From a virus, in the IMG/VR virus record IMGVR_UViG_3300030099_006375, positions 1-27,551 of that record: 27,551 bases of DNA; one strand, written 5' to 3'. Below the pieces are notes generated by a model, which saw nothing but the letters and a program-made list of their open reading frames with translations, did not search any database and was not told where the DNA came from. Positions 1-17,656 of the stretch are shown here, piece by piece; the first letter of the stretch is position 1; every line of letters starts with the position of its first letter. A program made the position numbers and the translations under genes.

Positions 1-3000
1 TCCTTTAGTACGCTCAAGCATTTCGTTAAACTCAGTAGACATAGTTTTGCTAAAGTTGATTCTAGCTTGTACAGACTTGCCTTTAACATCTAATTGATCA
101 AACACGTGTTTCACAGCCTCGACGTTCGGCAAAGCATCATCCACAAAGTACATGTCGTTGTAACCCTCGGCATACTTTTGTAAGAACCAAGCGGCCTTAG
201 CGTCGCCCGTGCTGTTACCTAAGCCAGTTATATTTTCAAGTGGTATATTAATACCTTTGGTTTTTAACCACTCGTGTATTGCTGTAGCAGATTCTTGTGG
301 TCTAGCTGTTAGTACAAATACATTTTTAGTACCATACTTTTTAATTTGATTTTTCATTTTCTGAAGTAGTGGTCCGTCAACACCACCTCTTACGTTTACA
401 AAATCTGTAAAATCAAAGTCGTATCCTAGCTTTTGGTATCTAGGTCCTTGTATAGGCCATTGACCTGAGCTTATTCTAACTTGCTCTTTTGTTTCAGGAT
501 TTGTAGCTATAATAAAGTTTTCACCATCAATTATTAAAGTTTCGTCAAAATCAAACGTTGACATACCCCTAGACTTAGCAGATCTGCTTTGATAAAGATA
601 AGCATTGCTAGCGTCTTTTAAAGTTTTACTTCTTTTTGTTTCTGGTCTTACAATATAACTGTCTAAGTACTTTTGCATTTTTCCTTTAGCATCAGCAGTA
701 GTCATTTCGTTTGTAAACACTTGAAATAACAACTCTTGCTGCATTGAAATAATATCTTGCGTCATGTGTAGTGATTTATCTACGCCAACGTTAAATGTTT
801 CTGCTAAAGTTCTACCATCTGGTAATGTTATTACGTTTGGATTAATACCGTAATAAGTTTTACCATTTAGCTTATATTCTTTTTTATTTACTACTGGATT
901 TATATATCTAACCCAATAAGGCATTATACCAAATAAGACGTCGTGATAATATTCTTGAGGTATTTTATCAACATATTCACCTAGTAAATCGTCAAATATT
1001 TTTGGTAAAGCTCCTTGAACAAAGTTTTCGTTCATTTGTTGTAGCATACCAGCGTCTAGAACACCCATGTTAGCTAAATCCCAAAGCATTTGAGCATGCT
1101 CAGTAGCTGGTTGCGCGTGTTCTTCTCTATTAACTAAGCCTAGCGTGTTGTGAAAACCATACTTAGAATTTATTCTTACAAAGTTTTTTTGATTAACAGG
1201 TGTTGACTCTAAAGCTGCAGCCCAAAACTTCCTGTTATTTTTGTCTTTAACACTTTCTTGTATAACTAACCATGTTTGAGAAAAACCTATTTCAGAGTTA
1301 TTTAAAAAATCTTGGTTCTTTTGTTTTTTCCAAAAGTCTTGAGCCCAGTCATTATTTTGTTTACCATATTCTTTTCTTGAGCTAATAGCTTTTAAAACAT
1401 CAGTTTCTTCTGCAAACTCTACATTTTTAAACTGCTCGTTAAACTGGCCTTTGTTTGCAAATAAATGTTTGCTGCTAGCAGGAAGATGTTTTGATCTAGA
1501 CTCTTCAAAATTAGGATCACTTTTTAATATTGTTGTACCATCGTTTAAATAGTATTTTTTATCAATTTTTTTACCATTTGCATCTTTAACTGGATCAAAC
1601 TTTCCACCCGAGCCAGTTAACTGCATTAGCCAGAAACTTTTAGGCATTTGCTTAGAACCATTTTGAGTAATCCATTTGATCATCTCGTTTCTGTCAGTAT
1701 CTTTAGTAAGATCTAATCTATTATACTCGTGAGTCTCTGCTAATCTATTCCATGTTTTTGAAAATAAAACTGGAGACATACCATCTGATATTGTAGCAAG
1801 TTGTGGATTTTGTTTTCTAAGTTCTTGATTAGTTATTATCTTGCCAAGAAGATCAGCTAAGGCTATTATTCTAGCAGACGTGTTTCTATCACGTGTAGGA
1901 ACACCATCTACTATACCTACTAAAGCTAATAATTCAGAGTCTAATATATTAGTTCTTTTAACTTGAGTTTTTAAACCAGCTTTTGTTTTAGCTCGTGAAG
2001 ATCTTTTATTGTAAAAAGCATCTAATATTGTTTTAGGTACACCTGTTGCTTTACCTTCTGAATTAAATCCTTGCGGTAAAATCTGTATCATCAAAGCTGC
2101 GTTCTTGTTGAACCAGCGTTGAGCTGAAGCAACTTCCGCGGCTGTAAGGTTTGCTTTGCTTTTTATTTTTTTAGGAGATATACCTAGTAACCCACCAACA
2201 AGCTCCGCTACAGCATTAGGAACATCTTTAAAACTAGTTAGTGTTATAGGATCGATGTTGGCATTGGTAACTGCTTCAGCAGCTTCGTTAGATACATTTA
2301 AGTTATTAGCAACATCAATTAACCTTGTTTTTCTTTCAGGTTCAGCGATAGCGTCTTCAGCTGTTTCTTCAGCAGCAACGCCTCTAGCCTCTGTTATGTC
2401 GGCTTCAAAGTTTTCTTTTAATACTTTTTTAGCAGCTTCAATAGCCCTAGCTGGTAAGAACTTATTTATATAAGCGGCTAAAGGAACGCCAGACTGTGGA
2501 TCGTAGTCATTAACTAAACCATACAAACCTCTTTGACTAAGCTCTATCTCAGTCATAAGTAGCTCTTCGTCATAACCAGGTACCTCGCTATATTTTCTAG
2601 CTAGTCTGTTTGTTATAGGTTTAAACGCTTCTATAATATCGAATATACCTTCTGATCCTCTTTCGCTATATATTTGTTGAACAGCCGCAGAGGCTTCAGA
2701 TCTAGACTGTTGTTGACCAGCCGTAGATTCTGTTTTTATTTCGTTTTCAACTTGCGTAAGAGCTCCTTCAATCTTTTTATTATTAAGTAGTTGTTGCTGG
2801 GCTCTTGTTAGTTTACCTTTTTTTATGCTAGTGTTATAGTCTCTAATGAAATTAAACACATCTTCTGAAGTGTTAAATTTTATCTCACTACCTTTTATGT
2901 TTTGACCAATTCTTCTAAGAAAATCTTTTATCTTAGTCATTGGTGTTGTCTCTACAGTTATATCACCAGAAGCTAAAGCGTCTGACGCTAGTGTTAATGC

Positions 3001-6000
3001 TTCCACCGCTTGTTGAGAAGGGTCTTCTTGATATAATCTTAACTTATTTACAAACGTGCTATTCTTAAACTGCTCTACATCAAGATCTATTAAAAATTCA
3101 GTAAGGGCTCCACCAACTTGCGCGGCTACTTGAGGATCGTTGTTTACTGTTTCTGCTATTAGTTTGTGTAAAAACTCATGAGCAGCTACGTTTGTATTAC
3201 CTCCGCTAAGAGCCACTGCTTTGTTAATGAACATCTCACCTGTGCTAGAATCAAAAAATCCTTCTTGCCTAGAGTTGTAGTCAGCTACTTCTTCGCTAAT
3301 ACCGTTTTCAATTAAGTGGTTTTTTAATTGCTCTGAGTTTTCAAAAGACTGTATTAAATTACCAGATACTTTGTTTACGTTATTTATTGTTTTATTTAGT
3401 ATCTCTTCTCTTCTTCGTATTACATCTGTATTCTGTATAGCTTCGTCTAAGCCTTTTATTTTATTATCTATTTCACTATGAAAAGCTTTATCTATATTTT
3501 GTTTTTTATTTACTAATCTTTGTTTTTCAATTAATAAATCTAACTGCTCTGTAGTAACAGTTTCTGGAGCAGATTTTATAGCGTTTCTAATCTCGTAAGC
3601 ATGCGCTTTAGTGTCCATCACTTGCTCGTAATTAGCTCTAGCTACATCTTTAGATTTTTGGTTATATCTTCTATCGTTTATTACTTTTCTGGCATGATTC
3701 TCTGCCATTTCTTCATCAAGCTCTATAGTTTTTATTATTTCATCAGCATTGTTTCTATACTGATCATAAATAATTTGTTTAGACTTTTTATAATTTTTCG
3801 GAGCAGCAACAGTTCCAAGAGAACCAGATAAAAGCAAAGTACCAACTATGACGTTTCTTTGGGCTTCAGCGTCTAAAAACTCAGAGTGAAAGTTTTCTAG
3901 AGTAGCTAGCTTTGCTACATCTTGCATTGCCATCTCTACTTGTTCTTCCCCAAGCTCTTTTGCTATGTTTGCTGTAAACTGTTTAAAAACTTTTTTCCTA
4001 GCTTCTACAGTAGCTGCTTTCTTTAAATTACCAACAAAGTTGTTTAATATACCTTGACCTGCTGGTGTTTTAAAAAAGTTTCTATCAGGCATTATCATCT
4101 GAGACAAGCCCGTAGCAAATGACATAGCGTTAGCGTAAGCAAAAGCTTGCTCGTTATCTAAACCTTGATTAATACCGTCAGTGTAATTATCTGTTATAGT
4201 CATTCTATAGGTTGCATCAAGCATCCTAACACCTTGCTTTATCTTTTCTGAATTTTTAGCTATTGGAGCAAAACTCTTTAAAAAATTAGCTCCTTTAGTA
4301 TACATAGTAGTTCCTTGCGCAACACCTTGAGCACCACCAGAATACATTATACCAAGTGTAAAAGGTAACATTTTAGCTACCATTTTAGTAGCATTTCTAA
4401 AGTTAACGTTATAAGCGTCTGTATCTATAATTTGCTCAAACGTGCTTTTATTTCCTGGATCGTAAAGTTTATTAGATATATCTGCGCCTATGTCAGACTC
4501 AGCGAAAAGTTCAACATTACCTGGTGTCATAAAAGATTCTAATAAATAATCATTATAATCAAAATACTCTGTATCGTCTCTATATAACCTGGTTATTTGA
4601 TAACCTAAAAAACCACCTAAACCTACAGAAGATTTATATATCATTGTAGAACCTTCGTTTGCAAAAGTAGCTAAAGCGTCCCAACTTTCATAACCTTTTT
4701 TCTTCCACCAAGAATCTGTTTCTAAGCTTTTCTTTATAAATCTGTTCTTATATTCTTGTATTTTATCTGTTACTGCAAAATTACTATTAAAAGCTTGTTT
4801 TGTTGCATCATAACCTAGCTCAGTATAAACTTTACCTAAATAATCGTTAGCTTTGTCGTACTCTTTTAAAATTACTTGCTCTCTATTTTTTAGCTGCTCG
4901 TAACTTTTCATTAGCTGATTATTTTGAGTAACTAAATTGTTATAAGCAATTATATCTTCTTGACTAGAGTTTTCATTTACGTCACCTAATAAGTCTAGTT
5001 GTCTTTTTAATTCTTTTTGCTGCGTATCAAATACTAAAAAATCTTTTTGTAGTGTTTCTGCTTTAGACTGTAAGGTGTTTGTCAAACCTTCATATACAGT
5101 GTATTTTCTCTCTAAAACTTTTGCTTTAGCCGATGTTATGATATTTTCTTTTTCAGGTAAAGATAATATCATACTTTCAAATATTTTTCCATCAACATCT
5201 TGCGCAGCTCTATCAAAACCTTCAAGACCAATATCTAAGTAAATTTCTTTAACTATTTCATCACTTATCTCTATAGTCTCTTCATCACCAGGCTCCCAAG
5301 ACATTGAAGTTAGATCATCACTTTGAAGAGCGGTTGTAAGATTATCTCTACCTTTGTTAATTACTTCTTCTTGATCGTATCTATGCTTTTTTAATATGCC
5401 AGCTTCTAAAGACTTAGCGTTTTGTCTTTTTTCGTTAGCCATTTCTATAGCTTGAACTTCACTAAATCCCTGATCTAAATAAAACTCGTAATACCTTTTA
5501 AAAACTTTATCTAGCTTTTTATCACCTTCTTTAATGTCTCTATTGCGAGCATCATATTCTATTTCTCTTTCTAATCGAACTGGATCTTTTTTAGCTTGCT
5601 CTAGTGTAGTGTTTTCATAGTTTTGCATTGCTTTCAACGCATCAGCAGCCGCTTGAGACATGTAACCGTAATCAGCTACAGCTTGATCGTATGTTTTTTT
5701 AAGATCTTGATAATAATTATCTACAGATAAATTTAGTTTGTTTAGTGTTTGCGGAAGTTGTTCTTGACGATCAAACTCTTCTTTAGTTAGTAGCTTGTCA
5801 CCTTTAACATACATAGTTTCTCCAGTCATCGCTTGTTGAAAAAGCTCGTCTTGCGTAGGAGGTTCGCCTTCATCAGTAGCTAATCTATATTGAAACTCCG
5901 GTTGTGATTCCGAAGAAGTAGTTTCCGAGCTGGATGCCATATCGTTTCCCGACGCTACAGGGGCATCCTGCGTCGCAACGTCGCTTGTCTTTTCCACAAG

Positions 6001-6108
6001 ACCTTTCGTTTTCATTTTCTCTAAATATGAATCAAAGTCCATATTGTATTTTTGAGCAGCACCCTGTAGTTGTTCTAAAGAGTATTCTGTGCCATTTAAT
6101 TCGTACAT
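1..6108 (-). CDS. Giant multidomain virion-associated protein (3' end outside window)
   Basis: An uninterrupted frame runs from ATG at 6108 (MYELNGTEYSLEQLQGAAQK) to the left edge: 2036 codons with no stop. Residues 30-70 are a Ser/Thr/Gln linker; 75-480 are charged helical coils. Hydrophobic stretches lie at about 487-505, 580-600 and 752-769. A zincin motif HEFLH is at 977-981, preceded by GGNTNVAA, with E1004 a possible third ligand. Residues 1190-1228 (GLYGLVNDYDPQSGVPLAAY, then INKFLPARAIEAAKK) resemble sigma-70 region 2. A HAD-type domain begins at 1849: FDFDET (D1853, D1855), LTARP (1933-1937) and VDDALPN (D1990, D1991). I see no transglycosylase motif. Size, order after two probable ejection proteins, and membrane segments suggest a capsid-carried, ejected protein that acts early in infection. 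It also fits the 'polyvalent protein' pattern. Function is inferred. Confidence 0.78.
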   Translation of the reverse strand, partial: MYELNGTEYSLEQLQGAAQKYNMDFDSYLEKMKTKGLVEKTSDVATQDAPVASGNDMASSSETTSSESQPEFQYRLATDEGEPPTQDELFQQAMTGETMYVKGDKLLTKEEFDRQEQLPQTLNKLNLSVDNYYQDLKKTYDQAVADYGYMSQAAADALKAMQNYENTTLEQAKKDPVRLEREIEYDARNRDIKEGDKKLDKVFKRYYEFYLDQGFSEVQAIEMANEKRQNAKSLEAGILKKHRYDQEEVINKGRDNLTTALQSDDLTSMSWEPGDEETIEISDEIVKEIYLDIGLEGFDRAAQDVDGKIFESMILSLPEKENIITSAKAKVLERKYTVYEGLTNTLQSKAETLQKDFLVFDTQQKELKRQLDLLGDVNENSSQEDIIAYNNLVTQNNQLMKSYEQLKNREQVILKEYDKANDYLGKVYTELGYDATKQAFNSNFAVTDKIQEYKNRFIKKSLETDSWWKKKGYESWDALATFANEGSTMIYKSSVGLGGFLGYQITRLYRDDTEYFDYNDYLLESFMTPGNVELFAESDIGADISNKLYDPGNKSTFEQIIDTDAYNVNFRNATKMVAKMLPFTLGIMYSGGAQGVAQGTTMYTKGANFLKSFAPIAKNSEKIKQGVRMLDATYRMTITDNYTDGINQGLDNEQAFAYANAMSFATGLSQMIMPDRNFFKTPAGQGILNNFVGNLKKAATVEARKKVFKQFTANIAKELGEEQVEMAMQDVAKLATLENFHSEFLDAEAQRNVIVGTLLLSGSLGTVAAPKNYKKSKQIIYDQYRNNADEIIKTIELDEEMAENHARKVINDRRYNQKSKDVARANYEQVMDTKAHAYEIRNAIKSAPETVTTEQLDLLIEKQRLVNKKQNIDKAFHSEIDNKIKGLDEAIQNTDVIRRREEILNKTINNVNKVSGNLIQSFENSEQLKNHLIENGISEEVADYNSRQEGFFDSSTGEMFINKAVALSGGNTNVAAHEFLHKLIAETVNNDPQVAAQVGGALTEFLIDLDVEQFKNSTFVNKLRLYQEDPSQQAVEALTLASDALASGDITVETTPMTKIKDFLRRIGQNIKGSEIKFNTSEDVFNFIRDYNTSIKKGKLTRAQQQLLNNKKIEGALTQVENEIKTESTAGQQQSRSEASAAVQQIYSERGSEGIFDIIEAFKPITNRLARKYSEVPGYDEELLMTEIELSQRGLYGLVNDYDPQSGVPLAAYINKFLPARAIEAAKKVLKENFEADITEARGVAAEETAEDAIAEPERKTRLIDVANNLNVSNEAAEAVTNANIDPITLTSFKDVPNAVAELVGGLLGISPKKIKSKANLTAAEVASAQRWFNKNAALMIQILPQGFNSEGKATGVPKTILDAFYNKRSSRAKTKAGLKTQVKRTNILDSELLALVGIVDGVPTRDRNTSARIIALADLLGKIITNQELRKQNPQLATISDGMSPVLFSKTWNRLAETHEYNRLDLTKDTDRNEMIKWITQNGSKQMPKSFWLMQLTGSGGKFDPVKDANGKKIDKKYYLNDGTTILKSDPNFEESRSKHLPASSKHLFANKGQFNEQFKNVEFAEETDVLKAISSRKEYGKQNNDWAQDFWKKQKNQDFLNNSEIGFSQTWLVIQESVKDKNNRKFWAAALESTPVNQKNFVRINSKYGFHNTLGLVNREEHAQPATEHAQMLWDLANMGVLDAGMLQQMNENFVQGALPKIFDDLLGEYVDKIPQEYYHDVLFGIMPYWVRYINPVVNKKEYKLNGKTYYGINPNVITLPDGRTLAETFNVGVDKSLHMTQDIISMQQELLFQVFTNEMTTADAKGKMQKYLDSYIVRPETKRSKTLKDASNAYLYQSRSAKSRGMSTFDFDETLIIDGENFIIATNPETKEQVRISSGQWPIQGPRYQKLGYDFDFTDFVNVRGGVDGPLLQKMKNQIKKYGTKNVFVLTARPQESATAIHEWLKTKGINIPLENITGLGNSTGDAKAAWFLQKYAEGYNDMYFVDDALPNVEAVKHVFDQLDVKGKSVQARINFSKTMSTEFNEMLERTKG

Positions 6109-6113
6109 AGTAT

Positions 6114-7907
6114 TTAATTATTTGGATTTAACGGATCGTAATCAGCTGTGTAAGTGTCTTTACCACTGCCTCTAATCTCAGCGTTTACGTTTTTATCGTG
6201 ACGCGCTCTTAGTCTTTTTAAATAATAAGCTTTTAGTTCGTCTCTAATATGTTCACCTATAGTACGTTCATTGTTACTAGCCCCTGAGAAACGCATTTCA
6301 AAGTCAGATACTTGACCCCAGTCTGCAGTATTATCAGGATCAAAATACTTATAAGCTTTGTCGTATTCAAGCATTATCATGTCGTCAGTAATACCTGTTT
6401 CACCTGTAAACTCAAAACTAGATTTTTGTAAAGCTTGAGCCTCTTCTAATGAAACACCGTCTTTCATTATTTCGTTATAGTTAGGTATTTTATCTTTGTA
6501 TTGCTCTAAAGTTTTTGTAGCCCAAGCTATTTTAGCACCAGGTAGCTTATCTTCTTTATAGTGCTGTATGAAAGTTTTACCGTCACCACCAAGCTCTGGA
6601 AAATCATGTATCCAAGACATAACGTTTTTCTTGTTAACGTCTTTGTTATAGCCAAATATTTTACCAAGACCAGCGTTGACAGCACCTTCATCAAACTGCA
6701 TGTTAGCTTTGTGATTTTTATCTACTGCATCTTGCATAGTGTTGTAATACTGCAAACCATTGTCATCTCTCTCGTATATACCTTGTTGCATTTGCTCTAA
6801 GGTCATCATTTGCATACCTTGACCGTTAGGCATAGCTACTTCAAATTGAATCATACCTCCTTTGTCTATAACCATAGGAGCGGTTTTATTCATAACTTGC
6901 TGCATGTAAAAATAAGAGTCAGACTGTCTTGTAGCTTCTGAATATCTAAATCTACCATCTTTATCTTGATCGCCCATACCGTGCTTGTCTGCAAAGTCAG
7001 CTTTCTCAAGCTGCAACTTTTGCATACTACCATTAAGTTGTTTTACTCTATTGTCAACAGCTTTCATTTCAGACTTAAGCTTAGCAAACATAGGGCTATT
7101 AGGATTTAACTTTCTAGCTCTAGCTTTCAAGCTCGCTAACTCTTTTTTCTGCGCAGATAAATACTCGCCACAAGCAAACGTGCCGTTGTTGAACGAATCA
7201 AAGCCAGACTGTACTTCATCTATGTTAAAGTTAGAAAGCTCAGCTTCTGTTCTTTTTCTTTGCTGATCTCTCATTAAAGAAAACACATTATACATGTTAT
7301 TAAGTCCAGAACTGACAGCTTGTATGCTTTTGACATTAGAAGTTCCCATCATACCTCTACGCAGAGCAGCAACGTTAAACTTGTATTTAGCAGGAGAAGC
7401 TACCATAGGCGTCGCGCTTACTTGATTTTCTTCAGCTTGATCATATTCTTCCTCCTCCATTTCTTCAAACCTCTTATCATCAAACTCTTGCTGTCTTCTT
7501 TCTTTTTCAGCCTTACCAGCTTCTGTTAGGTTACCATCTTTATCAGCGTAACCTTTTTTAATCATTTCTTTTAAAGTATTTTTCTCTCTTTTCTCTATGT
7601 CCTTCTTCTCTTTCTTCTCAGCTCTTTCTTGTTGTTTTTTATCTTTATGGCTTTCAAATCCTTCACTTATAGCCATTTCATTTTTTTCAGCTCTATTTTG
7701 TAACTCTTTTTCTTTGAGCATAGAGAGCGTATTATATAGATCTGTAAGAGAGTTGTTAAGACCTGTTATACCCATAGTCTCACCCTCAAAACCTTCACGC
7801 TGTGGAAACATACCATACAAATCTGCTTGAAAGCCCTGTGCTTGTTTTAACCTTTCTTCAGAGGCTCTTAGAGCATCGTCTTTAATATCGTCGTTATTTC
7901 GAGCCAT
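6114..7907 (-). CDS. Probable internal virion protein with an EF-hand loop
   Basis: This 597-residue, highly charged, mainly helical protein has no clear membrane segment. Residues 85-160 are a Lys/Glu coiled coil ending in an acidic run (EEMEEEEYDQAEEN). Residues 250-305 hold a second coil. D313 to E324 reads DQDKDGRFRYSE, a textbook 12-residue EF-hand loop (Asp at 1, 3 and 5, Gly at 6, hydrophobic at 8, Glu at 12). The C-terminal half is globular with many aromatic residues. I do not recognise a named family. Its place between a gp14-like protein and a giant protein fits a middle ejection protein of the T7 gp15 kind. It ends five bases before the next ATG. The calcium site, if real, could couple assembly or ejection to ion concentration. 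Confidence 0.58.
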   Translation of the reverse strand: MARNNDDIKDDALRASEERLKQAQGFQADLYGMFPQREGFEGETMGITGLNNSLTDLYNTLSMLKEKELQNRAEKNEMAISEGFESHKDKKQQERAEKKEKKDIEKREKNTLKEMIKKGYADKDGNLTEAGKAEKERRQQEFDDKRFEEMEEEEYDQAEENQVSATPMVASPAKYKFNVAALRRGMMGTSNVKSIQAVSSGLNNMYNVFSLMRDQQRKRTEAELSNFNIDEVQSGFDSFNNGTFACGEYLSAQKKELASLKARARKLNPNSPMFAKLKSEMKAVDNRVKQLNGSMQKLQLEKADFADKHGMGDQDKDGRFRYSEATRQSDSYFYMQQVMNKTAPMVIDKGGMIQFEVAMPNGQGMQMMTLEQMQQGIYERDDNGLQYYNTMQDAVDKNHKANMQFDEGAVNAGLGKIFGYNKDVNKKNVMSWIHDFPELGGDGKTFIQHYKEDKLPGAKIAWATKTLEQYKDKIPNYNEIMKDGVSLEEAQALQKSSFEFTGETGITDDMIMLEYDKAYKYFDPDNTADWGQVSDFEMRFSGASNNERTIGEHIRDELKAYYLKRLRARHDKNVNAEIRGSGKDTYTADYDPLNPNN

Positions 7908-7908
7908 A

Positions 7909-8613
7909 TTACTTTTTCTTTTTGGTAGTTTTTCTTTTCTTTCTCTTACTTAAAGCGGCTTTAGCTTTAGGATCTTTCATTGTAAAAGCACCTATAGCCA
8001 TGCTAGCACCATCAAATATTGCCTGTTGACCCGCAGCTTTGTCTGCTCTAGCCGCCGCTAGTTGACCTTGAGTAAGACCCATTAATGCCTCTTGTTTAGC
8101 CATCTCCATTTGTTGAGAGTGCATCGCGCCTTGACCTTTAAGTTGTTGAACCTCCATTGCTCCACGTCTTTCCATTTCTTGATTAGAGGCAGCTTGTTGT
8201 CGTTCAGCCATTTTGTTTTGAGCTTCTTGTTGACCTATACTAGCAGAAGCCTGTCTCGCGGCTTGGGCACCACCAGCTACTAACGCTTGTATATTACCAG
8301 CATCAAAGCCACCAGTCTCTTGCATAGAGCTCATAACATTAGCTTGAGACTGCGCTGCAGCATCTCTTTCAAACTCAGCTTGTTGCGTGTTAACCTCTAG
8401 ATCTTCCATGGTGTTTTCCATATTCTCATACTGATTCTTTGCATCAGCATAAGGATTAGATGTATCTAGACCTTCCATAGCTTCCATACGTTTAGCAAGC
8501 TTGTCTTTCAGATCTTTCTCTTCTTTCTTAGCTTTTCTACTTGCTATAAAGCCTGATATACCTTTAGCAATACCAACACCGGCCATTGCTATACCTGCTA
8601 TTGCTAAACTCAT
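7909..8613 (-). CDS. Probable internal virion (ejection) protein, gp14-like
   Basis: This 234-residue protein starts with a Gly/Ala-rich hydrophobic segment (residues 3-24, AIAGIAMAGVGIAKGISGFIA) typical of a membrane-inserting helix, followed by a Lys/Glu-rich coil and a long Gln-Ala-Met-rich helical middle (about 85-195). The last 20 residues are almost all basic (SKRKKRKTTKKKK), suggesting contact with packaged DNA. This layout (hydrophobic N-terminus, Ala/Gln-rich coil, small size) is like the T7 gp14 or P22 gp7 type of ejection protein; the similarity is of architecture only. It is the first of three consecutive genes of increasing size, the usual order of ejection proteins. Its stop is one base from the next start. 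Confidence 0.6.
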   Translation of the reverse strand: MSLAIAGIAMAGVGIAKGISGFIASRKAKKEEKDLKDKLAKRMEAMEGLDTSNPYADAKNQYENMENTMEDLEVNTQQAEFERDAAAQSQANVMSSMQETGGFDAGNIQALVAGGAQAARQASASIGQQEAQNKMAERQQAASNQEMERRGAMEVQQLKGQGAMHSQQMEMAKQEALMGLTQGQLAAARADKAAGQQAIFDGASMAIGAFTMKDPKAKAALSKRKKRKTTKKKK

Positions 8614-8616
8614 GAC

Positions 8617-9078
8617 TTATTTATTTTTAATGTATTGTTCATAATCTTCGTGTGTTAAAGAAACTAACTGTTTCTCTAGTTCTTCTATATCTGTGATGTT
8701 TTCTGGATTTGCGTGTATGTTAACAAACAAAGAATCCTCCGCAGCATATATTACTCTTTTAGACCCTGGTTTAGCTACAACATAGCAAGGAGCGATATAC
8801 TCTTCTTGAAAGTCTTCTGTAGCTATAAACAGACGACCGTATAATAAAAACCAGACGTGCAAGTGCTTATGTATGGCTCCGACTACGGCTGAATCTTTTT
8901 TAAATTTCATTTCCCTTACATAAACACCATCAACAAACGTGTGCTTAAGTGGAAAGTTTTCGCTATGCAAAACTTCTTTTCCTGTGCCTTCAATGTTTTT
9001 ACCGTCAGCGTTAGCAATAAGAAAATCTTGCAGTTTTATTATTTTTTCTCTAGCAGCTAGAGTTATTTCTTTTTTCAT
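8617..9078 (-). CDS. Cupin-fold protein
   Basis: This 153-residue protein has the two short motifs of a small cupin beta-barrel. The first is GAIHKHLHVWFLLYGRL, with H70, H72 and H74 and the closing glycine. The second is AKPGSKRVIYAAEDSLFVNI, with P104-G105 and a final H122 as a possible metal ligand. The glutamate common in cupin motif 1 is absent, so metal binding could use only histidines or be lost. Small cupins occur in structural operons of several phages, probably as virion proteins or sugar/receptor-contacting parts, but the role is not settled. It lies 40 bases after the 122-residue gene and three bases before the start of the next gene. Confidence 0.72.
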   Translation of the reverse strand: MKKEITLAAREKIIKLQDFLIANADGKNIEGTGKEVLHSENFPLKHTFVDGVYVREMKFKKDSAVVGAIHKHLHVWFLLYGRLFIATEDFQEEYIAPCYVVAKPGSKRVIYAAEDSLFVNIHANPENITDIEELEKQLVSLTHEDYEQYIKNK

Positions 9079-9496: not shown

Positions 9497-12400
9497 TTAT
9501 GTAAACTCTGGTGAATCGTGATTTCCTACCCTTAGTCCAGTTTTTGAAAAAACTTGTAAAAAGCCTGTTTCCACTACCCCACCACCTTCGAATTTTACAG
9601 TTATCACAAGCTGTTGTTGTACATTAGCGGCGCCATGATTTGTTACGGTACAAGCCACGTCTATTTCATAACTTGCTGCACTGTTAGAGCTTGAGTTTAG
9701 TTCAAATTGATGGTTTACAACGCCTGGACCGGCAAACATGTTGTTATTAAAATATTGTTCAATATTTGCGGCAGCTTCAGTATTGTTACCAGCAGTGTTA
9801 CCTGTGTAAAATGCACCAGCTACATCTATAAATTTATTTCCTTGAATAGGATCATTTACGACAAATCTGTGTCCAGAAGTAGTTTGCACCGTTATTGTTT
9901 TTACCGTTCTTTGTACTCCAGCACTACTTGTTCCCTCTACAATACTCTTGTGTTTTTCATGTGAACCGAGTGATGTAATATTACTGCTCGAAGTTACACT
10001 GTATTGGCTAGCTGGTGCTGCTATAGTAGCTAAATCACCGCTAGATCCATTACCAAATATTTGTTGAGTAGCAGGACTGTCACCCATATCTTTAGTAATA
10101 TTGCAAGTAGTGTCAACTCTATGCTTTATTTCCGCCCCACCTAAAGTTACTGGTGATCCTTGAATTATTAAAGTAATATCTACAGCTGAAGTTACTACAA
10201 GACTTTCAAACTCAAAGTCAATTTGAACACCTTGATTAGGTGATCCACCTAAGTTGGTGGTTGTAACTTTATGTATATTTGCAGCCGCTCCGCTAAATGT
10301 ATCACCACTAACTCCTTCTTGGTAAACAGATGGTCCAGCGCTAGGCGCGTTAGCAGCATTACCACCAACAGTTGTTATATTAGCGTTTTCAAAAGTAAAA
10401 CCAAATTGTGGTGTTATAATACATTGAGCAACTACTTGGTCAAGATTAGAGTTTCCTTGAACGCTAGTAGCAAAGCTTTGAACAGTAACGCCAGCACTAG
10501 TTGCACCACCAGTGTTTTGATGAACAACATTAACAGTGATAGGAAATTCTTTAGTACTAATAGGATCTTCAAATTCATCTTCTGGTGTGAAAGATTCACC
10601 ACCGGGATCTACAGGTATTACAGGCTCGTCACCGCCACCTATGTCTTGAACTGGTTGCCAAATAAGTGACATATCACCTATTATTGCAGGATCAAATGAC
10701 GGAGGATCACAAGGATTACCGTCAACTATACCAGTTCCCCATTGTATATTATTCATATATGGAACAGTACCACCACCACTTGATGTCGGATTAGCACTGA
10801 ATGGGAAAAATCCATCTGACATTGATGGACTAGAAGATCCAGCAAGTCCATCAAAATCTAAAGTATAGGTAACGGTTAGCTGCGTGGCTAATCCATTATT
10901 ATCAAACTCTGTAAAATCCCAGTTTATTTTCAAGAAACCACTATAAGCAAACGCAGCCGATACTGTTTGTAAAAATCCAAAGCTTCCTGAGTTTTGATTA
11001 TAAAAATCAGATTGCGAAGGAGAAAAAGCAGGTGCAAAGATAGCACCGGTATCCCAGCCAAGAGCTTGTGGAAATATAAAAGAAGTTAAAACATCTTGTG
11101 CTGTTTGATTACCAACTGGGCTTACGAAATGATTTCCAACAGAAGCGTTGTAGACTACAGAAAAGCTATTGCTACTTGTTGTGTAATCCCAAGAACCATT
11201 TAACACACACGAAAGATCAGCACCTGAGCTAGGCGCAAGTGGGTCAGGAAAAAGGAGTGCAAACTCCGCGTTGTTCATAGCTTGACCAAACTGTAATACG
11301 CTAGTTGATAAGTTTGGATCAATAGCCGTTGGTTGAGCTAAAGACCACTCAGAAGAAGCGCCTTCTTCCCAAATTAAGTCAATATCAAAAGGTATATAGT
11401 ATTGATATATTTGTAGCGCAGTACCATCAGTATCAGCTGCTAAATTAACACTTAACGTTTGACTAGCGTTAGGCGTGTAACCACTTGCCCACTGAATCTG
11501 TACAATAATACAGTCGCTAAGACTGCCTGTTGGTAAAGTAATTGTAGCTGTAACAACATCTGTTATAGTTTGACTAGTGCTACTACTTGTATTTTGTGTT
11601 GTAGTTCCGTTTAACGTTAAACTATCTATAACAACAGTAGGCGCTGTAAAGCTTCCGTTAAAAGGAGCGGTTAAACCACTGTTAGGATCTATAAAGCTAT
11701 AGCCTTCTGGTGGACACACTGTAACTTGCTGCTTACCTGTTCCAGCATCAAAACTTGAATACGTACTAAAGTCTGTATCAAATGGTATTAAAGTTTCTGT
11801 GTTGCTAGTTACAGTTACCGTTTGCTGACAAGTAACACTTAGCGCTGCGGTAACTTCTGAAGAGTAAAATAAACCACTGTTGGTGCCACCACTTATAGCG
11901 CTAGCCCTACCTATACCCTGCACAGAAAACTCTTGAGAGTCTATATTACCAGTACCGCCTCCACCACCAACGTCGTTTGTAAATGTTGTGGCTACACCAG
12001 ATATACTATTAAACCACTTACCTTCTTTTTCTTTAAACTCTAAAACTTGACCTTCTTGTTTGTCTGTAGTTATAGACTCAACAAACCAACCTGTATATGC
12101 ATCGTCATTATAATATTCAGCGTCTGAAAAAACAACTGTTTTAAGACCAGCTATACTTACAGCAGTGCTTAAGGTTAGTTGATTACTGCCCGTGTTTATA
12201 GCTGTAATAGTGACAGGTGTTAACTGAAGACTTTCTGGTAGAGTAAAATCATCACCAGTTACAACTTGACCTACTGTTAAGCCCGTGGGTATCGATGTTA
12301 AAGTTAAAGTAGTTGTTGCGTTGTGAGCTCCGTTAGTTGTTCCAGTTCTACTGTTAGCTATAACTTGAGCTTGTGTACCTTCGTAGTTTATAGTTTGAAA

Positions 12401-15400
12401 ACTTTTAACAGAGCCTGGCGCGTCGTTAAATATAGGTGTTATACTTGAAAAATATTGTGTACCATAAAAGTTATTTCTACCACCAACAGCATCATCGCTA
12501 TGTAGAAAAACTCTACCTTTTTTAAGAGTGTAATATTCGTTGTTAATAGATAAACCTTGCTCTATAATGTAAGACTTAAAGCTAACCCAAGAGTTTGTTT
12601 TTTCATTAAAAGATATTGTTTGAACTCTTTTTGTTACGTCAACAGTAGTATCACTATCTGTATCATCTACACCTAAGTTGTTGTGTATAGTTAGATCGTA
12701 CTCACCTTTTTTATCATTAAAAGCACCAACGCAAGCCACGGCACTCTTAAGCTCGTCTGCAAAATAATCAGACATACCTATTTCAGATATAGGTGTTATT
12801 CCGTCCATAGATAATCTACAAACAGCACCTCTGTCTCTATCTGTAAAATAGCATCTAAACTCATTTTCAGCAAAAGACTCTGGGTTTCTTGATATACCAT
12901 GGTCTCCACTAAAAGGAACTGCTGTACCTAACACGGCTTTATTAGACGTTACGTTTGTGTTACCGTCAGCGTTAAACAACGCGTCTTTGTTAGATAATAT
13001 TTTTAAAACTTTGTTTTCACAAAAAGCTAATACATTTGTATTTCTAGTAAATAGCTTTTGTATACTACCATATTCTGGATTTAAGTCTTTTGTTATACCT
13101 TCTGCTTTAATAAACTGATTTAAGTTATTAACGTCAGTTTTAGAATTATAAATACCGGAAAATATTAAACCGTGCTTATATGTTTTTTGTCCGTAAGTTT
13201 CTGCTGTAGAAGAAGCTTTAACACCATTATCTAATCTAGGCGCGTTAAAATCATCTCTAATTCTATCAGACTCAACACCGTTACCAAAATGCCAACAGTT
13301 GTGGAAAGGCAAAGTATTTTCAGAAGTAAACACTAAAGAGTTTAAGTGCACGCTTTCTGTTGCTGTATAGCTTTGAATGTTGTCAAAGAACGTTGTGTTT
13401 GGAGAGCTTTGATAACCTAAGCCTAGTTGTCCAGAACCCGGTAAGCCATCTTTGAAGTTATTAATAGTTAAAGTAGATTTAGTACCATCTAGTCTATACA
13501 CGTGAAAACTTCCAAATCTATCAAAAGAACTAACAGACGTATGCTCTCCAGCTACACCAGGGTTTCCAACATAAACGCCCGCGTTTGCACCAAGCGAGAA
13601 ACTGAAAGAATTACCGTCTGCAATTAAGCCTGGATCGATACCGTCATGAGTTCCTGCTAAATAATGAGTTGCTCCAGACGTTAAAATAGGTACACCAAAG
13701 TTTCTTATAGCATCTAAACCTATTTTCTGAATACCATCTTCTATTTGAGAACCTCTAACGTGTAGTATCTTTGTAGTTAGATCTTCTAAGGCGTCTTTAG
13801 TTTTGTTATCAAACAAATGGAATAATTCATTTGGTTTTTTACCGGTACCGTGAGGATCATTATGGCTAAAAGGAACTGAGTCAACAGCTGTAAACGTCGG
13901 TGCTGAGTTATCAGTACCATCAGAGTCATAACCAGTTCTATAACAACTTACAAAATCTCCAAAGTTTATAAAGTCTTCAATATTTTTTTCTGTAAGTTTT
14001 ATAGGATAAGTTCTAGGTATTTCAAAAAAGATATTTAAGCCAATATCTGGATCTGGTAAAATTTCAAATATAGCCGGCGTATTGTAGTCGCCTAGTACAG
14101 TTCCTAAAAAGTTAGTGGTAAGATAACTTGCTTCTCCAGCTCCTTTTAATCCAACAACTAAATTTTTAGAAGCTTTTACTTTTACATAAAACTTACCTTT
14201 TCTCTGCTTAGGCGGTATAACAACTTCTACTTCATTTTGCGAAGGATCATTTGAATCAAACTTTGGCGCTTCATTAGATATAGCTAAAACTCTAATAGTC
14301 TCATCAGCATATCTATAAGCACCACCTTCTCCAGCTCTACTTTTTAATCTTAATAAAGAGTCTTCTTGTATTTTGTTTCTATCAGCAGAGTGAAAAGCAA
14401 GCCAGTAGCTTTTAGTAGCGTTTTGAGAGCTAGTACCATCTCCTTCAGCTGGATAAGCTTTAAATAAAGCTATGTTGTAATATTCGTTAGATGTTTCTTT
14501 TACATAATATCTATAGTGTGTAGCCCAAGAAGGTATACCTCCTTCTAAGGTAAGCTTAGCTCTTAGTCTACTAGTAGAAAAAGCACTATTAACAGGAGCT
14601 GTATAAGAGCTCTCTGGACCAGTTATTACAGGAGACTGCCTGCCAAATCTATCTAAAAAAGATATTCCTAAAGTGTAAGTTCTATCAGATTTTATTGATT
14701 TGTGAGGAGAGCCATAATGCCTATGATTAAATTGATTAGTGTAAGCGGTTTCTCTAAAAGAGCCTCTTAAAGCATCTTGCGGATCTCGCCACTCGTAATA
14801 TAGTCTTGGTACTACATCTTTACCATCGCTTGTTTTTAAATCATAGTCTAACGTGTAGTTACCGTATATAAGTCTATTAGCTGAAACGCATTGAGCTTTT
14901 GCTTTTATTGGAACAGCGTCAAAAGGCCTTAATATTTGATTAGAAGGTATTACACCACCAAGCTTTTCAGACTTAACAACAAAAACACCTCTAGTATTTG
15001 AATAAGAAAAGTTAGGAAATTTATTTGCCTCGTTTGAAAGACTTTGATTAAAGTTTATTGCAGCTGCTATAGTCGGATCTGCCGCTGTGCTGTTGCTGAC
15101 TAATTGATTAGGTCCTAGTACAGTTTTAGCAAAGTTTCTATTATCATCGTTCCACTCTCTACTGCCTTTATTTATAGATTCTAACTTATATATATTGTTT
15201 TCTCCATCAAACTTAACTAGAATATCTATTTGTTTTACATCTACGGGCGTGCTTGGCGTTATAAAATCTCTAAGCTTGATCATTCTAACATCGTTTTCCA
15301 TAGCAGAGTTTTGTCCTTCTTCTTTATTCCAAGAATACTTATTCTTTGGTAAAAAGCAAGGCTCTGTAAAAGGGCTTATAGCTGAAAACTGATTGTCGTC

Positions 15401-17656
15401 ATATTTGTATCTAATAGCAAATCTAGGAAATTTATCTTTAAATATAACAGGATCGTTTGGATCTTCTAGACTTGCCTCCCAATACTGCATACCACTAGTA
15501 GTAGCTTGCGATAACGGCGTTTTGTTTAATTCTTCGTTTTTATCTACTACTATACCTTTTATAGTAAGTATATCGTTATATTTTGTATACGTGGGTGGAG
15601 TTGCGTTAGTACCACTAGTACCACCACTACCAAAGTCATAAAATCCATCTTCACTATCTCTTTCTATGTTAACCACTTTAGCCCCGTTAGTATCGTGATA
15701 ATCGTTAGTTGGAGCTGACGCTCCTGGCTGACTAAAAGTTCCATTACTAGCAATTTCTGTTATTTGTATTTTTAACGACCTTGTGCCGGAGTCTGAATCT
15801 GTAGCAACTGTTCCACCAGATCCATCAAAAACAAGAGCAGGCGTATAGTAACTTATTGAGTTTAAAACTAAAATATCATTTACTCGCCAAGAGTGATTTT
15901 TTGTATTATTGTCAGTATCAACAGTGCCAGTAAAAAAAGAAGGAAAAGCATAATCTCTAGCTTGATTTTTTGTTACAGTAAAAGTTATTTCTGTTGAAGA
16001 GTCTATAGGCGTAGCGCTGTTTATAGCTGAAGCAGATTTTAAACCTATATTATGCGTTAAACCTATTCTTTTAGTTCTTAAAAGATCTACTTTTGGTGGG
16101 TTTAGTGGATGCCTTCTTATTACTGTTATATCTTCTAACTCGTAGTTTTTAATTTTATCATTGTTTAAACCAAGGCCATAATTAGTACTTGAGCTAGCTG
16201 GTAGATGACCAAACTTATTACTAATTGGGTTTTTATATAGCAGCTGAGTAGTCTCAAAAAGCATAGGTTTAAGAGCGGGTTCTGCTCCTTGGTTAATAAC
16301 TGCATTACCATTAGTAACATAGTTAGAGCCAGCTATACCTTTTTCAATATCTATTCTTTTTGGCTCTGTCTTGCCGTCTGTGAAATATATAGTACCTTCA
16401 ACAATATCAATACCAGTTATCTTGTTGTTTATAGGCGTTGGATGATCTTTTATTAATTTTGTTCCACTAGAATTAGTCTCTGTATAATCTAATTTATTAC
16501 CTGTTTGAAAATTTAAAAGTCTTTCATTAGAAAACTTATAGTGAATACCACTGGCTATATTAGCTGCTGTCACTAAGTTTGCAGGTATTGCTTTGTTTAA
16601 AGTTATTTGAATTTGTCTTGGGGCAGGATTACCACCACCCATCTTTCTTTCAACCTTTAAAACTTTAACACTACCTAAAGCATTGAGTGTAACAGGATTT
16701 ATAAGGTCAGGAGTTAATATGTTTTGTCCACTTGAATCTATTATTTGAAAGTCAGCACCGGGATAAATACCATTAGCGTAATTCATGTTTCCAGAGCTAC
16801 TAACTGAAGGATTAGACCCAGATTCTGACATAAAAAGAATAGTAATATCTTCGTTTCTAGGACCAGTTTTGTTATTTACGTCAGTGCTATTAGAAACATC
16901 CCATTGATCTATAATATGAGTGGGTGTTCTATAAACATTGTACACATCTACAAAAACTGCTTTAAGTTTATCGTTCTGTGTAGTAGCTTGATACTGAGCT
17001 GTTCTAGTTTCTAATATACAGTCTACATCATAACCATCTTTTGTTGCTACTGAAAATGTTAAGGTAGTGCCACTAGCAATACTATTTAATTTACTTAAAG
17101 TAATAGTAGTACCGCTTATAGCTGTTACTGTAGTTGAGTGAACAACATCTGTACCAGTAACTAATTGACCAACGACTACACCTGTAGCACTGTTTAACTC
17201 TACTGTATCAGAGTCTGTAGTTGTGCCTGAAGATGTTTGGACTTGTGTAGTAAGCGTTAAAGAAGGTGTGTCTGAATATCTGTTTCCTGCCGCAACAATC
17301 TCAGGCTCAATAGCGCTAGATAAAAAACTGTATATTTTATCTGTAGCTTCATCTGTAACAACGCCAACTGTTTCAGCTGAGTCAGAAAAATCATTTCCAA
17401 AGCTAGGCGTATAATATACGAAAGGAGCATTTTCGTCAAGACTTGCTATTCCAAAAGTATTGTGAAATCTATCGTCTATTCTTAGACTACCAAGCAGTTG
17501 ATTACCAGGAACATTGCGAGCTGTACCAACAGATGACTCTTCAGCTGTTGAAACTTCTATATTCAACGCATCTCTATATTCACCGTCTGGTATAATTCTT
17601 TCGTCAAGGTCTTTGTTCATTCGACCTTGCATAAAATTTCTTTTCAACTCAGGCAT
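9497..17656 (-). CDS. Giant tail stabilisation/adhesin-like protein
   Basis: This 2719-residue protein is the largest complete gene here. Its N-terminus (KRNFMQGRMNKDLDERIIPD, then GEYRDALNIEVSTAEES) matches the start I know from stabilisation or 'muzzle' proteins of crAss-like and other podoviruses, which form the tail tube below the neck and are often beta-propeller based. A second conserved block at about 1530-1630 (YGSIQKLFTRNTNVLAF, CYFTDRDRGAVCRLSMDGI, PISEIGMSDYF) belongs to the same family. Beyond about 1650 the chain becomes Ser/Thr/Asn-rich and beta-rich, like an Ig-like adhesin, which could contact the host. A duplicated insert domain occurs at about 140-205 and 1765-1845, and three degenerate beta modules with a G-aromatic-x-F core lie at about 1975, 2410 and 2585. 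Family members are usually much shorter, so this looks like a fusion of tail tube with receptor-binding modules. There is no sign of a frameshift. Confidence 0.75.
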   Translation of the reverse strand: MPELKRNFMQGRMNKDLDERIIPDGEYRDALNIEVSTAEESSVGTARNVPGNQLLGSLRIDDRFHNTFGIASLDENAPFVYYTPSFGNDFSDSAETVGVVTDEATDKIYSFLSSAIEPEIVAAGNRYSDTPSLTLTTQVQTSSGTTTDSDTVELNSATGVVVGQLVTGTDVVHSTTVTAISGTTITLSKLNSIASGTTLTFSVATKDGYDVDCILETRTAQYQATTQNDKLKAVFVDVYNVYRTPTHIIDQWDVSNSTDVNNKTGPRNEDITILFMSESGSNPSVSSSGNMNYANGIYPGADFQIIDSSGQNILTPDLINPVTLNALGSVKVLKVERKMGGGNPAPRQIQITLNKAIPANLVTAANIASGIHYKFSNERLLNFQTGNKLDYTETNSSGTKLIKDHPTPINNKITGIDIVEGTIYFTDGKTEPKRIDIEKGIAGSNYVTNGNAVINQGAEPALKPMLFETTQLLYKNPISNKFGHLPASSSTNYGLGLNNDKIKNYELEDITVIRRHPLNPPKVDLLRTKRIGLTHNIGLKSASAINSATPIDSSTEITFTVTKNQARDYAFPSFFTGTVDTDNNTKNHSWRVNDILVLNSISYYTPALVFDGSGGTVATDSDSGTRSLKIQITEIASNGTFSQPGASAPTNDYHDTNGAKVVNIERDSEDGFYDFGSGGTSGTNATPPTYTKYNDILTIKGIVVDKNEELNKTPLSQATTSGMQYWEASLEDPNDPVIFKDKFPRFAIRYKYDDNQFSAISPFTEPCFLPKNKYSWNKEEGQNSAMENDVRMIKLRDFITPSTPVDVKQIDILVKFDGENNIYKLESINKGSREWNDDNRNFAKTVLGPNQLVSNSTAADPTIAAAINFNQSLSNEANKFPNFSYSNTRGVFVVKSEKLGGVIPSNQILRPFDAVPIKAKAQCVSANRLIYGNYTLDYDLKTSDGKDVVPRLYYEWRDPQDALRGSFRETAYTNQFNHRHYGSPHKSIKSDRTYTLGISFLDRFGRQSPVITGPESSYTAPVNSAFSTSRLRAKLTLEGGIPSWATHYRYYVKETSNEYYNIALFKAYPAEGDGTSSQNATKSYWLAFHSADRNKIQEDSLLRLKSRAGEGGAYRYADETIRVLAISNEAPKFDSNDPSQNEVEVVIPPKQRKGKFYVKVKASKNLVVGLKGAGEASYLTTNFLGTVLGDYNTPAIFEILPDPDIGLNIFFEIPRTYPIKLTEKNIEDFINFGDFVSCYRTGYDSDGTDNSAPTFTAVDSVPFSHNDPHGTGKKPNELFHLFDNKTKDALEDLTTKILHVRGSQIEDGIQKIGLDAIRNFGVPILTSGATHYLAGTHDGIDPGLIADGNSFSFSLGANAGVYVGNPGVAGEHTSVSSFDRFGSFHVYRLDGTKSTLTINNFKDGLPGSGQLGLGYQSSPNTTFFDNIQSYTATESVHLNSLVFTSENTLPFHNCWHFGNGVESDRIRDDFNAPRLDNGVKASSTAETYGQKTYKHGLIFSGIYNSKTDVNNLNQFIKAEGITKDLNPEYGSIQKLFTRNTNVLAFCENKVLKILSNKDALFNADGNTNVTSNKAVLGTAVPFSGDHGISRNPESFAENEFRCYFTDRDRGAVCRLSMDGITPISEIGMSDYFADELKSAVACVGAFNDKKGEYDLTIHNNLGVDDTDSDTTVDVTKRVQTISFNEKTNSWVSFKSYIIEQGLSINNEYYTLKKGRVFLHSDDAVGGRNNFYGTQYFSSITPIFNDAPGSVKSFQTINYEGTQAQVIANSRTGTTNGAHNATTTLTLTSIPTGLTVGQVVTGDDFTLPESLQLTPVTITAINTGSNQLTLSTAVSIAGLKTVVFSDAEYYNDDAYTGWFVESITTDKQEGQVLEFKEKEGKWFNSISGVATTFTNDVGGGGGTGNIDSQEFSVQGIGRASAISGGTNSGLFYSSEVTAALSVTCQQTVTVTSNTETLIPFDTDFSTYSSFDAGTGKQQVTVCPPEGYSFIDPNSGLTAPFNGSFTAPTVVIDSLTLNGTTTQNTSSSTSQTITDVVTATITLPTGSLSDCIIVQIQWASGYTPNASQTLSVNLAADTDGTALQIYQYYIPFDIDLIWEEGASSEWSLAQPTAIDPNLSTSVLQFGQAMNNAEFALLFPDPLAPSSGADLSCVLNGSWDYTTSSNSFSVVYNASVGNHFVSPVGNQTAQDVLTSFIFPQALGWDTGAIFAPAFSPSQSDFYNQNSGSFGFLQTVSAAFAYSGFLKINWDFTEFDNNGLATQLTVTYTLDFDGLAGSSSPSMSDGFFPFSANPTSSGGGTVPYMNNIQWGTGIVDGNPCDPPSFDPAIIGDMSLIWQPVQDIGGGDEPVIPVDPGGESFTPEDEFEDPISTKEFPITVNVVHQNTGGATSAGVTVQSFATSVQGNSNLDQVVAQCIITPQFGFTFENANITTVGGNAANAPSAGPSVYQEGVSGDTFSGAAANIHKVTTTNLGGSPNQGVQIDFEFESLVVTSAVDITLIIQGSPVTLGGAEIKHRVDTTCNITKDMGDSPATQQIFGNGSSGDLATIAAPASQYSVTSSSNITSLGSHEKHKSIVEGTSSAGVQRTVKTITVQTTSGHRFVVNDPIQGNKFIDVAGAFYTGNTAGNNTEAAANIEQYFNNNMFAGPGVVNHQFELNSSSNSAASYEIDVACTVTNHGAANVQQQLVITVKFEGGGVVETGFLQVFSKTGLRVGNHDSPEFT

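Follow-up and report, generated by a model that had tools for sequence, protein, structure and literature searches.

Gene content of the window and the giant protein

The window analysed here is the whole 27,551-base stretch of the virus record IMGVR_UViG_3300030099_006375 (IMG/VR), which carries a crAss-type virion module on its minus strand, with genes for a terminase large subunit (TerL), a portal protein, a major capsid-type protein (MCP), two more structural proteins and a 2719-residue protein resembling the crAss muzzle. The latter is followed by small proteins, then by proteins of 234 and 597 residues, and the module ends with the gene for a giant protein, which is the subject of this study. 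The giant is read without interruption from position 6108 to position 1 on the minus strand (residues 1-2036), with no stop codon and the frame still open at the contig edge, in agreement with the initial annotation of this DNA, which had described a continuous frame of at least 2036 residues. We put at about 0.75 the probability that, jointly, the giant combines a zincin, a HAD domain and a C-terminus of the type found in phage polyvalent proteins, that its family belongs to the virion module, and that the protein is ejected into the host.

As a single full-length sequence the giant had no match in Pfam, PHROG or PDB and no relative among 50,697 phage records. Weak Pfam matches to DUF885, PH_4, zf-primase and similar families were taken as chance, as were matches to ResA, which consisted of a 40-residue helix only. 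Relatives were found in IMG/VR, first at 38 loci and later in 122 stretches, and removal of duplicates left 63 giants including that of the window, 47 of them complete and 1634-3936 residues long. One relative (L001) is 89% identical across all 2036 residues and then continues for 685 residues more, while complete relatives in general end about 650-780 (once 1025) residues past the contig end of the window. Since the relatives run on to this extent, the full protein is predicted to have about 2700 residues, with 650-780 C-terminal residues missing from the window. The shortest giant (L037, 1634 residues) has an apparent frameshift split inside its HAD domain, after which a new frame follows (L037:8408-13616); L013, which agrees with it in lengths and motif positions as far as that break, is intact, and the frameshift is likely to be an assembly error.

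The zincin and HAD domains

The predicted zincin metallopeptidase (MPTase) domain is encoded at 2812-3237 (minus strand), with the HExxH motif at 3166-3180 (HEFLH, residues 977-981) and the codon for E1036 at 3001-3003. In all 59 relatives with the start in view, a HExxH motif lies 886-1308 residues before the QKMKNQ motif of the HAD domain, and 58 of these have exactly one. As shuffling gives a chance of 0.4% per protein for a HExxH motif in that stretch, its occurrence in this slot is not due to chance. Among 36 aligned zincin domains, with identities down to 16%, only the two histidines, the glutamate between them and one further glutamate (E1036 in the window) are invariant; over the alignments as a whole H977, E978 and H981 never vary, and E1036 does so rarely if at all. 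In the AlphaFold2 model three strands precede the helix with the HExxH motif, and E1036 is located in a later helix. The published layout of the polyvalent-protein metallopeptidase has the HExxH motif in one helix, a glutamate ligand in a later helix, and a three-strand sheet (PMC5512222), and judged by its sequence and model the zincin of the window conforms to that definition, consistent with the earlier reading of HEFLH as a zincin motif. The zincin profile also matches gp18 of an elemo phage, an isolated Flavobacterium phage (HH probability 95%; hmmsearch E-value of 3e-12 in a small set).

The second enzymatic domain, encoded at 64-573 (minus strand, residues 1846-2015), is a predicted HAD-fold domain of phosphatase type, and is present in all relatives. 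Its three motifs were located at residues 1852-1858 (FDFDETL), 1933-1936 (LTAR) and 1988-1992 (FVDDA), with residues D1853, D1855, T1934, R1936, D1990 and D1991 invariant; FDFDET, LTAR, a conserved lysine and VDD vary little or not at all across the relatives. The HAD domain of the window just exceeds the Pfam cut-off for DUF2608, the PDB Foldseek neighbours of the model include HAD structures (with weak E-values), and the models place alternating strands and helices at this position, as in the Rossmann-type fold of the HAD superfamily. The phosphatase-type domain had also been named in the initial annotation, and both motif sets fall within folded domains of the AlphaFold models rather than in unrelated or disordered segments.

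In two relatives a P-loop kinase (AAA_33/Zeta_toxin) is inserted within the HAD domain just after motif I, at about residues 2060-2330 in L006, where it scores above the cut-off, and at about residues 2430-2700 in L034, whereas L026 has a similar kinase after the HAD domain. The PHROG polynucleotide-kinase families match the kinase (E-value of 6e-10) and, weakly, the HAD domain (0.006 for the window), which makes nucleic-acid end-healing a reasonable guess for its substrate. In the polynucleotide kinase-phosphatases of PHROG 415 and 505 both domains have counterparts, the kinase in three relatives, but in the window family they sit inside a giant protein.

The C-terminal domain and conserved blocks

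The initial annotation missed the conserved C-terminal 650-780 residues past the contig end, which are visible via the relatives. This domain is highly conserved and is nearly all helical in the model. When a model of the HAD and C-terminal domains was compared with predicted viral structures, many phage proteins matched with E-values below 1e-3, including proteins named PolyVal ADP-ribosyltransferase or large polyvalent protein-associated (E-values of 1e-8 to 1e-4, probability 1.00). Closer relatives, with 31-50% identity, take the first four places among the matches; they are annotated either as uncharacterised or as UDP-N-acetylglucosamine kinase. The structural alignment spans both the HAD domain and the helices, and the HAD domain could supply part of the score, although the matches usually extend over 700-1000 columns, a length pointing to a contribution of the helices as well. 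According to the model, the C-terminal part is predicted to share its fold with the C-terminal parts of phage proteins annotated as polyvalent. No signal was obtained for this domain against known phage giants with hidden Markov model (HMM) searches and hhalign, and LPD14 was found below its cut-off in L006 and L034.

Three conserved blocks precede the HAD domain on the minus strand, at 1756-2199 (in 23 of the 63 giants), at 1129-1665 (10/63) and, directly preceding the HAD domain, at 670-1131 (34/63). At the other end, a Cys/His-rich tail (CxxxxxxGxRC...CxxH) is present once or twice in the giants of L004, L006, L008, L010, L012, L013, L016, L017, L026, L027, L034 and L036 and absent from other giants, and in some members matches DUF5763. 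A DxDGD motif found in 11 giants resembles that of RNA polymerases, but was taken instead for an acidic linker leading into the Cys-rich tail.

The N-terminal half and the sigma-like stretch

The N-terminal module (residues 1-67, 5908-6108, minus strand) is kept in 10 giants, even though the next several hundred residues are mostly unalike, and is a possible packaging or targeting tag. Residues 110-420 (4849-5781, minus strand) are charged, rich in E, K, Q and L with 1% proline, and coiled-coil-like by composition only. They are followed by a membrane-proximal region (residues 420-850, 3559-4851, minus strand). Of 60 relatives, 28 have in front of the zincin a region with homology to its counterpart in phi38:1 gp101, phi13:2 gp127 and elemo gp18, a count made up of 22 relatives above 80% HH probability and the six used in building the profile. 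A single giant among the 40 records searched, the 3548-residue L021, has an N-terminal Glucosaminidase domain above the cut-off (L021:7025-7522); a peptidoglycan hydrolase at this end is as expected for a chain obliged to cross peptidoglycan.

Between the zincin and the conserved blocks lies a stretch which had been described as resembling sigma region 2 (residues 1157-1218, 2455-2640, minus strand). A profile built from Bacteroidota primary sigma factors and the stand-alone sigma factors of the phages themselves aligns to it in the right register, as the best of all tiles of residues 850-2036, but the match is sub-threshold (HH probability 9%, with an E-value of 0.0038 for one comparison). 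Likewise, sigma70 is the top PDB Foldseek match of a 1187-residue model, also sub-threshold (E-value of 0.41, probability 0.35); four mycobacterial sigma chains are among the first 50 matches, all with E-values above 0.4, and the search did not report which region of the model was aligned. A profile search of the PDB matched no sigma factor, and the window was not listed in the search with PF04542. The block around this stretch is present in 14 of the 63 giants, and has the sigma-like form in eight of those only. The two independent matches in sequence and structure are only suggestive of a sigma-region-2 identity, with both scores falling short of significance. Apart from the giant, a separate sigma-70-like factor of about 250 residues is encoded in six of the 36 related records searched (L143-L148; PF04542, five above the cut-off).

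The virion module and its cargo genes

The TerL, portal and MCP sequences match phages of the Pervagoviridae, Elemovirus and Pachyviridae, in keeping with a crAss-type virion module. The nearest cultured phages by these three proteins are the Flavobacterium elemo phages, Maribacter phage Panino, Cellulophaga phages phi38:1, phi40:1 and Calle, phage phi13:2 and Tenacibaculum phage Gundel, while the uncultured Manatee Spring genome MW202828 is closer to the window phage than any of them. By sequence the window phage is classified as a Crassvirales-related marine podovirus near Pervagoviridae and Elemovirus, a group of Flavobacteriia phages. Relatives of the giant are also present in Bacteroidota genome bins, and the few in other bins (Aliivibrio, Maricaulis and an archaeon) are probably from mis-binned viral contigs.

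The giant is encoded among the late virion genes, as are polyvalent proteins, and its position as the final gene of the virion module is conserved in synteny with both relatives and cultured phages. The muzzle-like protein (9497-17656, minus strand) has a crAss_MUZ_C domain above the cut-off at residues 1727-1769, and is extended at its C-terminus by a long stretch of about 950 residues. Between this gene and the cargo genes lies one for a short tail fibre or adhesin-like protein (8617-9078, minus strand; phrog_12032, E-value of 7e-25), relatives of which were found in 18 loci only versus 114 for the adjoining 234-residue protein, and which may therefore be exchanged frequently. The 234-residue protein (7909-8613, minus strand) is homologous to phi38:1 gp99 (E-value of 3e-12 in a small set). 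The 597-residue protein directly upstream of the giant (6114-7907, minus strand) has the same position as phi40:1 gp100, although homology between the two was looked for and not detected; in relatives its place is taken by a protein of roughly 200-750 residues. As proposed in the initial annotation, the giant follows two likely ejection proteins.

In phi40:1, the proteins gp97, gp98, gp99, gp100 and gp101 are all recorded as structural by experimental tandem mass spectrometry (MS/MS), with gp101 being the positional counterpart of the giant. From this homology and gene position, it is probable that the virus particle contains the giant and delivers it into the bacterial cell. Together with phi13:2 gp127 and elemo gp18, phi40:1 gp101 belongs to a set of giant virion proteins of the Pervagoviridae, Elemovirus and Pachyviridae, which share with the window family a location behind the muzzle and small cargo genes, the membrane-proximal domain of the 28 relatives and, in elemo gp18, the same zincin, but in which neither the HAD domain nor the C-terminal domain was detected with HMM searches or hhalign.

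Comparison with polyvalent proteins and weighing of the alternatives

The features of the giant are those of the phage polyvalent proteins (Iyer et al. 2017, PMC5512222): a long chain of at least two biochemically unrelated domains (zincin and HAD, with kinase or glucosaminidase added in relatives), a zincin with HExxH, additional glutamate and three strands, a location among virion genes, kinase and muralytic domains in scattered members with a sub-threshold LPD14 match in two, and a C-terminal fold in common with annotated PolyVal proteins. The window family differs in that all relatives have a HAD domain, invariably placed immediately ahead of the C-terminal domain, and perhaps also in its sigma-like stretch. 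The terms sigma, haloacid, phosphatase and polynucleotide kinase do not occur in the main text of PMC5512222, and hence, while the kind of protein is known, the combination of domains looks new, with no description found. Of the earlier proposal of a multi-enzyme package injected with the DNA, the polyvalent character is well supported by the zincin, the C-terminal fold, the last position in the virion module and the phi40:1 MS/MS record; injection is probable, and the domains may act in combination.

Several results weigh against an ejected polyvalent protein. With a transmembrane cut-off of hydropathy 1.6 over 19 residues, no window of the giant qualifies, the best being residues 752-770 with 1.40, and the three hydrophobic stretches initially annotated as membrane segments are thus less well supported than described; moreover, its own membrane-proximal region has no detectable match to the phi38:1-type domain (HH probability 0.2%). 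The LPD38 Pfam model gave nothing in the giant family except a weak match in Panino. The PDB Foldseek matches of both models all have E-values above 0.2, and mean pLDDT values (predicted local distance difference test) of 69.5-74.7 leave the packing of the domains uncertain. Finally, the virion evidence for the window phage itself consists of homology and gene position.

The alternative that fares best, which we nevertheless regard as improbable, is that the giant is a non-enzymatic internal virion protein, a conduit or scaffold, in which the zincin would serve only in maturation of the head or of the giant, with the HAD domain surviving as a structural relic. Its location within the virion module, the record of phi40:1 gp101 simply as a structural protein, and the processing of P1 DdrB before packaging (PMC5512222) agree with this, but it is unlikely that relics would keep all HAD and zinc-ligand residues invariant over relatives which are 16-50% identical, and relatives have gained further enzymes (kinase in L006, L026 and L034, glucosaminidase in L021). 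There is very little room for the giant being an ordinary cytoplasmic multi-enzyme protein merely adjoining the virion genes: none of its motifs demands ejection, but the conserved last-gene position in the virion block, the MS/MS record of the same-position homologue in phi40:1, the polyvalent-type C-terminus and the cell-wall hydrolase at the L021 N-terminus all speak against it. Least credible of all is an ejected virion RNA polymerase as carried by crAss-like phages (PMC7886860, PMC10136315) and N4, which are likewise giant, ejected and encoded near late genes, with those of the N4 type being polyvalent and containing a zincin (PMC5512222), since the window protein lacks a DxDxD motif, no polymerase motif or fold was found in Pfam, PHROG, PDB or Foldseek searches, and the separate sigma factor in six related records points to the use of host RNA polymerase.

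Proposed working of the giant as a probable ejected protein

For the ejected polyvalent protein, we envisage a late-made chain of about 2700 residues with unrelated domains, which would be loaded in the capsid and ejected into a Bacteroidota host with or just before the DNA. Homology within the family indicates that the giant is encoded last in the virion module, directly after the two smaller candidate ejection proteins, with which its helical, membrane-proximal N-terminal half may pass through or dock in the cell envelope. The zincin might then cut the chain, either at packaging or after entry, and thus release the enzymatic modules, a step to which we give slightly less than even odds. More doubtful is the next, in which the freed HAD domain, paired with a kinase in three relatives, would dephosphorylate a nucleic-acid end or nucleotide, and so protect or prepare the genome or the RNA of the host within minutes of the start of infection. 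It is no more than a suggestion that the sigma-region-2-like module contacts host RNA polymerase, and the conserved helical C-terminal domain could be a unit that proteins of this kind have in common for docking or packaging. Cleavage of the chain by its own zincin, the substrate of the phosphatase and the contact with RNA polymerase are all to be read as hypotheses. It would be a long shot to combine them into a self-processing pre-early transcription and repair kit on one chain, in which a working sigma-region-2-like module captures the host's RNA polymerase on DNA entering the cell and the HAD domain (plus kinase in some) heals ends, all freed by the zincin and operating without a phage RNA polymerase.

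The family adds more than 100 stretches of marine viral contigs to the polyvalent proteins, which as single sequences go virtually unnamed in Pfam and PHROGs, and provides a link from the environmental giants to phages in culture, those of Cellulophaga and Flavobacterium, with which ejection and self-cleavage are testable. As the HAD domain is invariant and at times has a kinase fused to it, these phages may generally need to heal ends or dephosphorylate nucleotides on entry.

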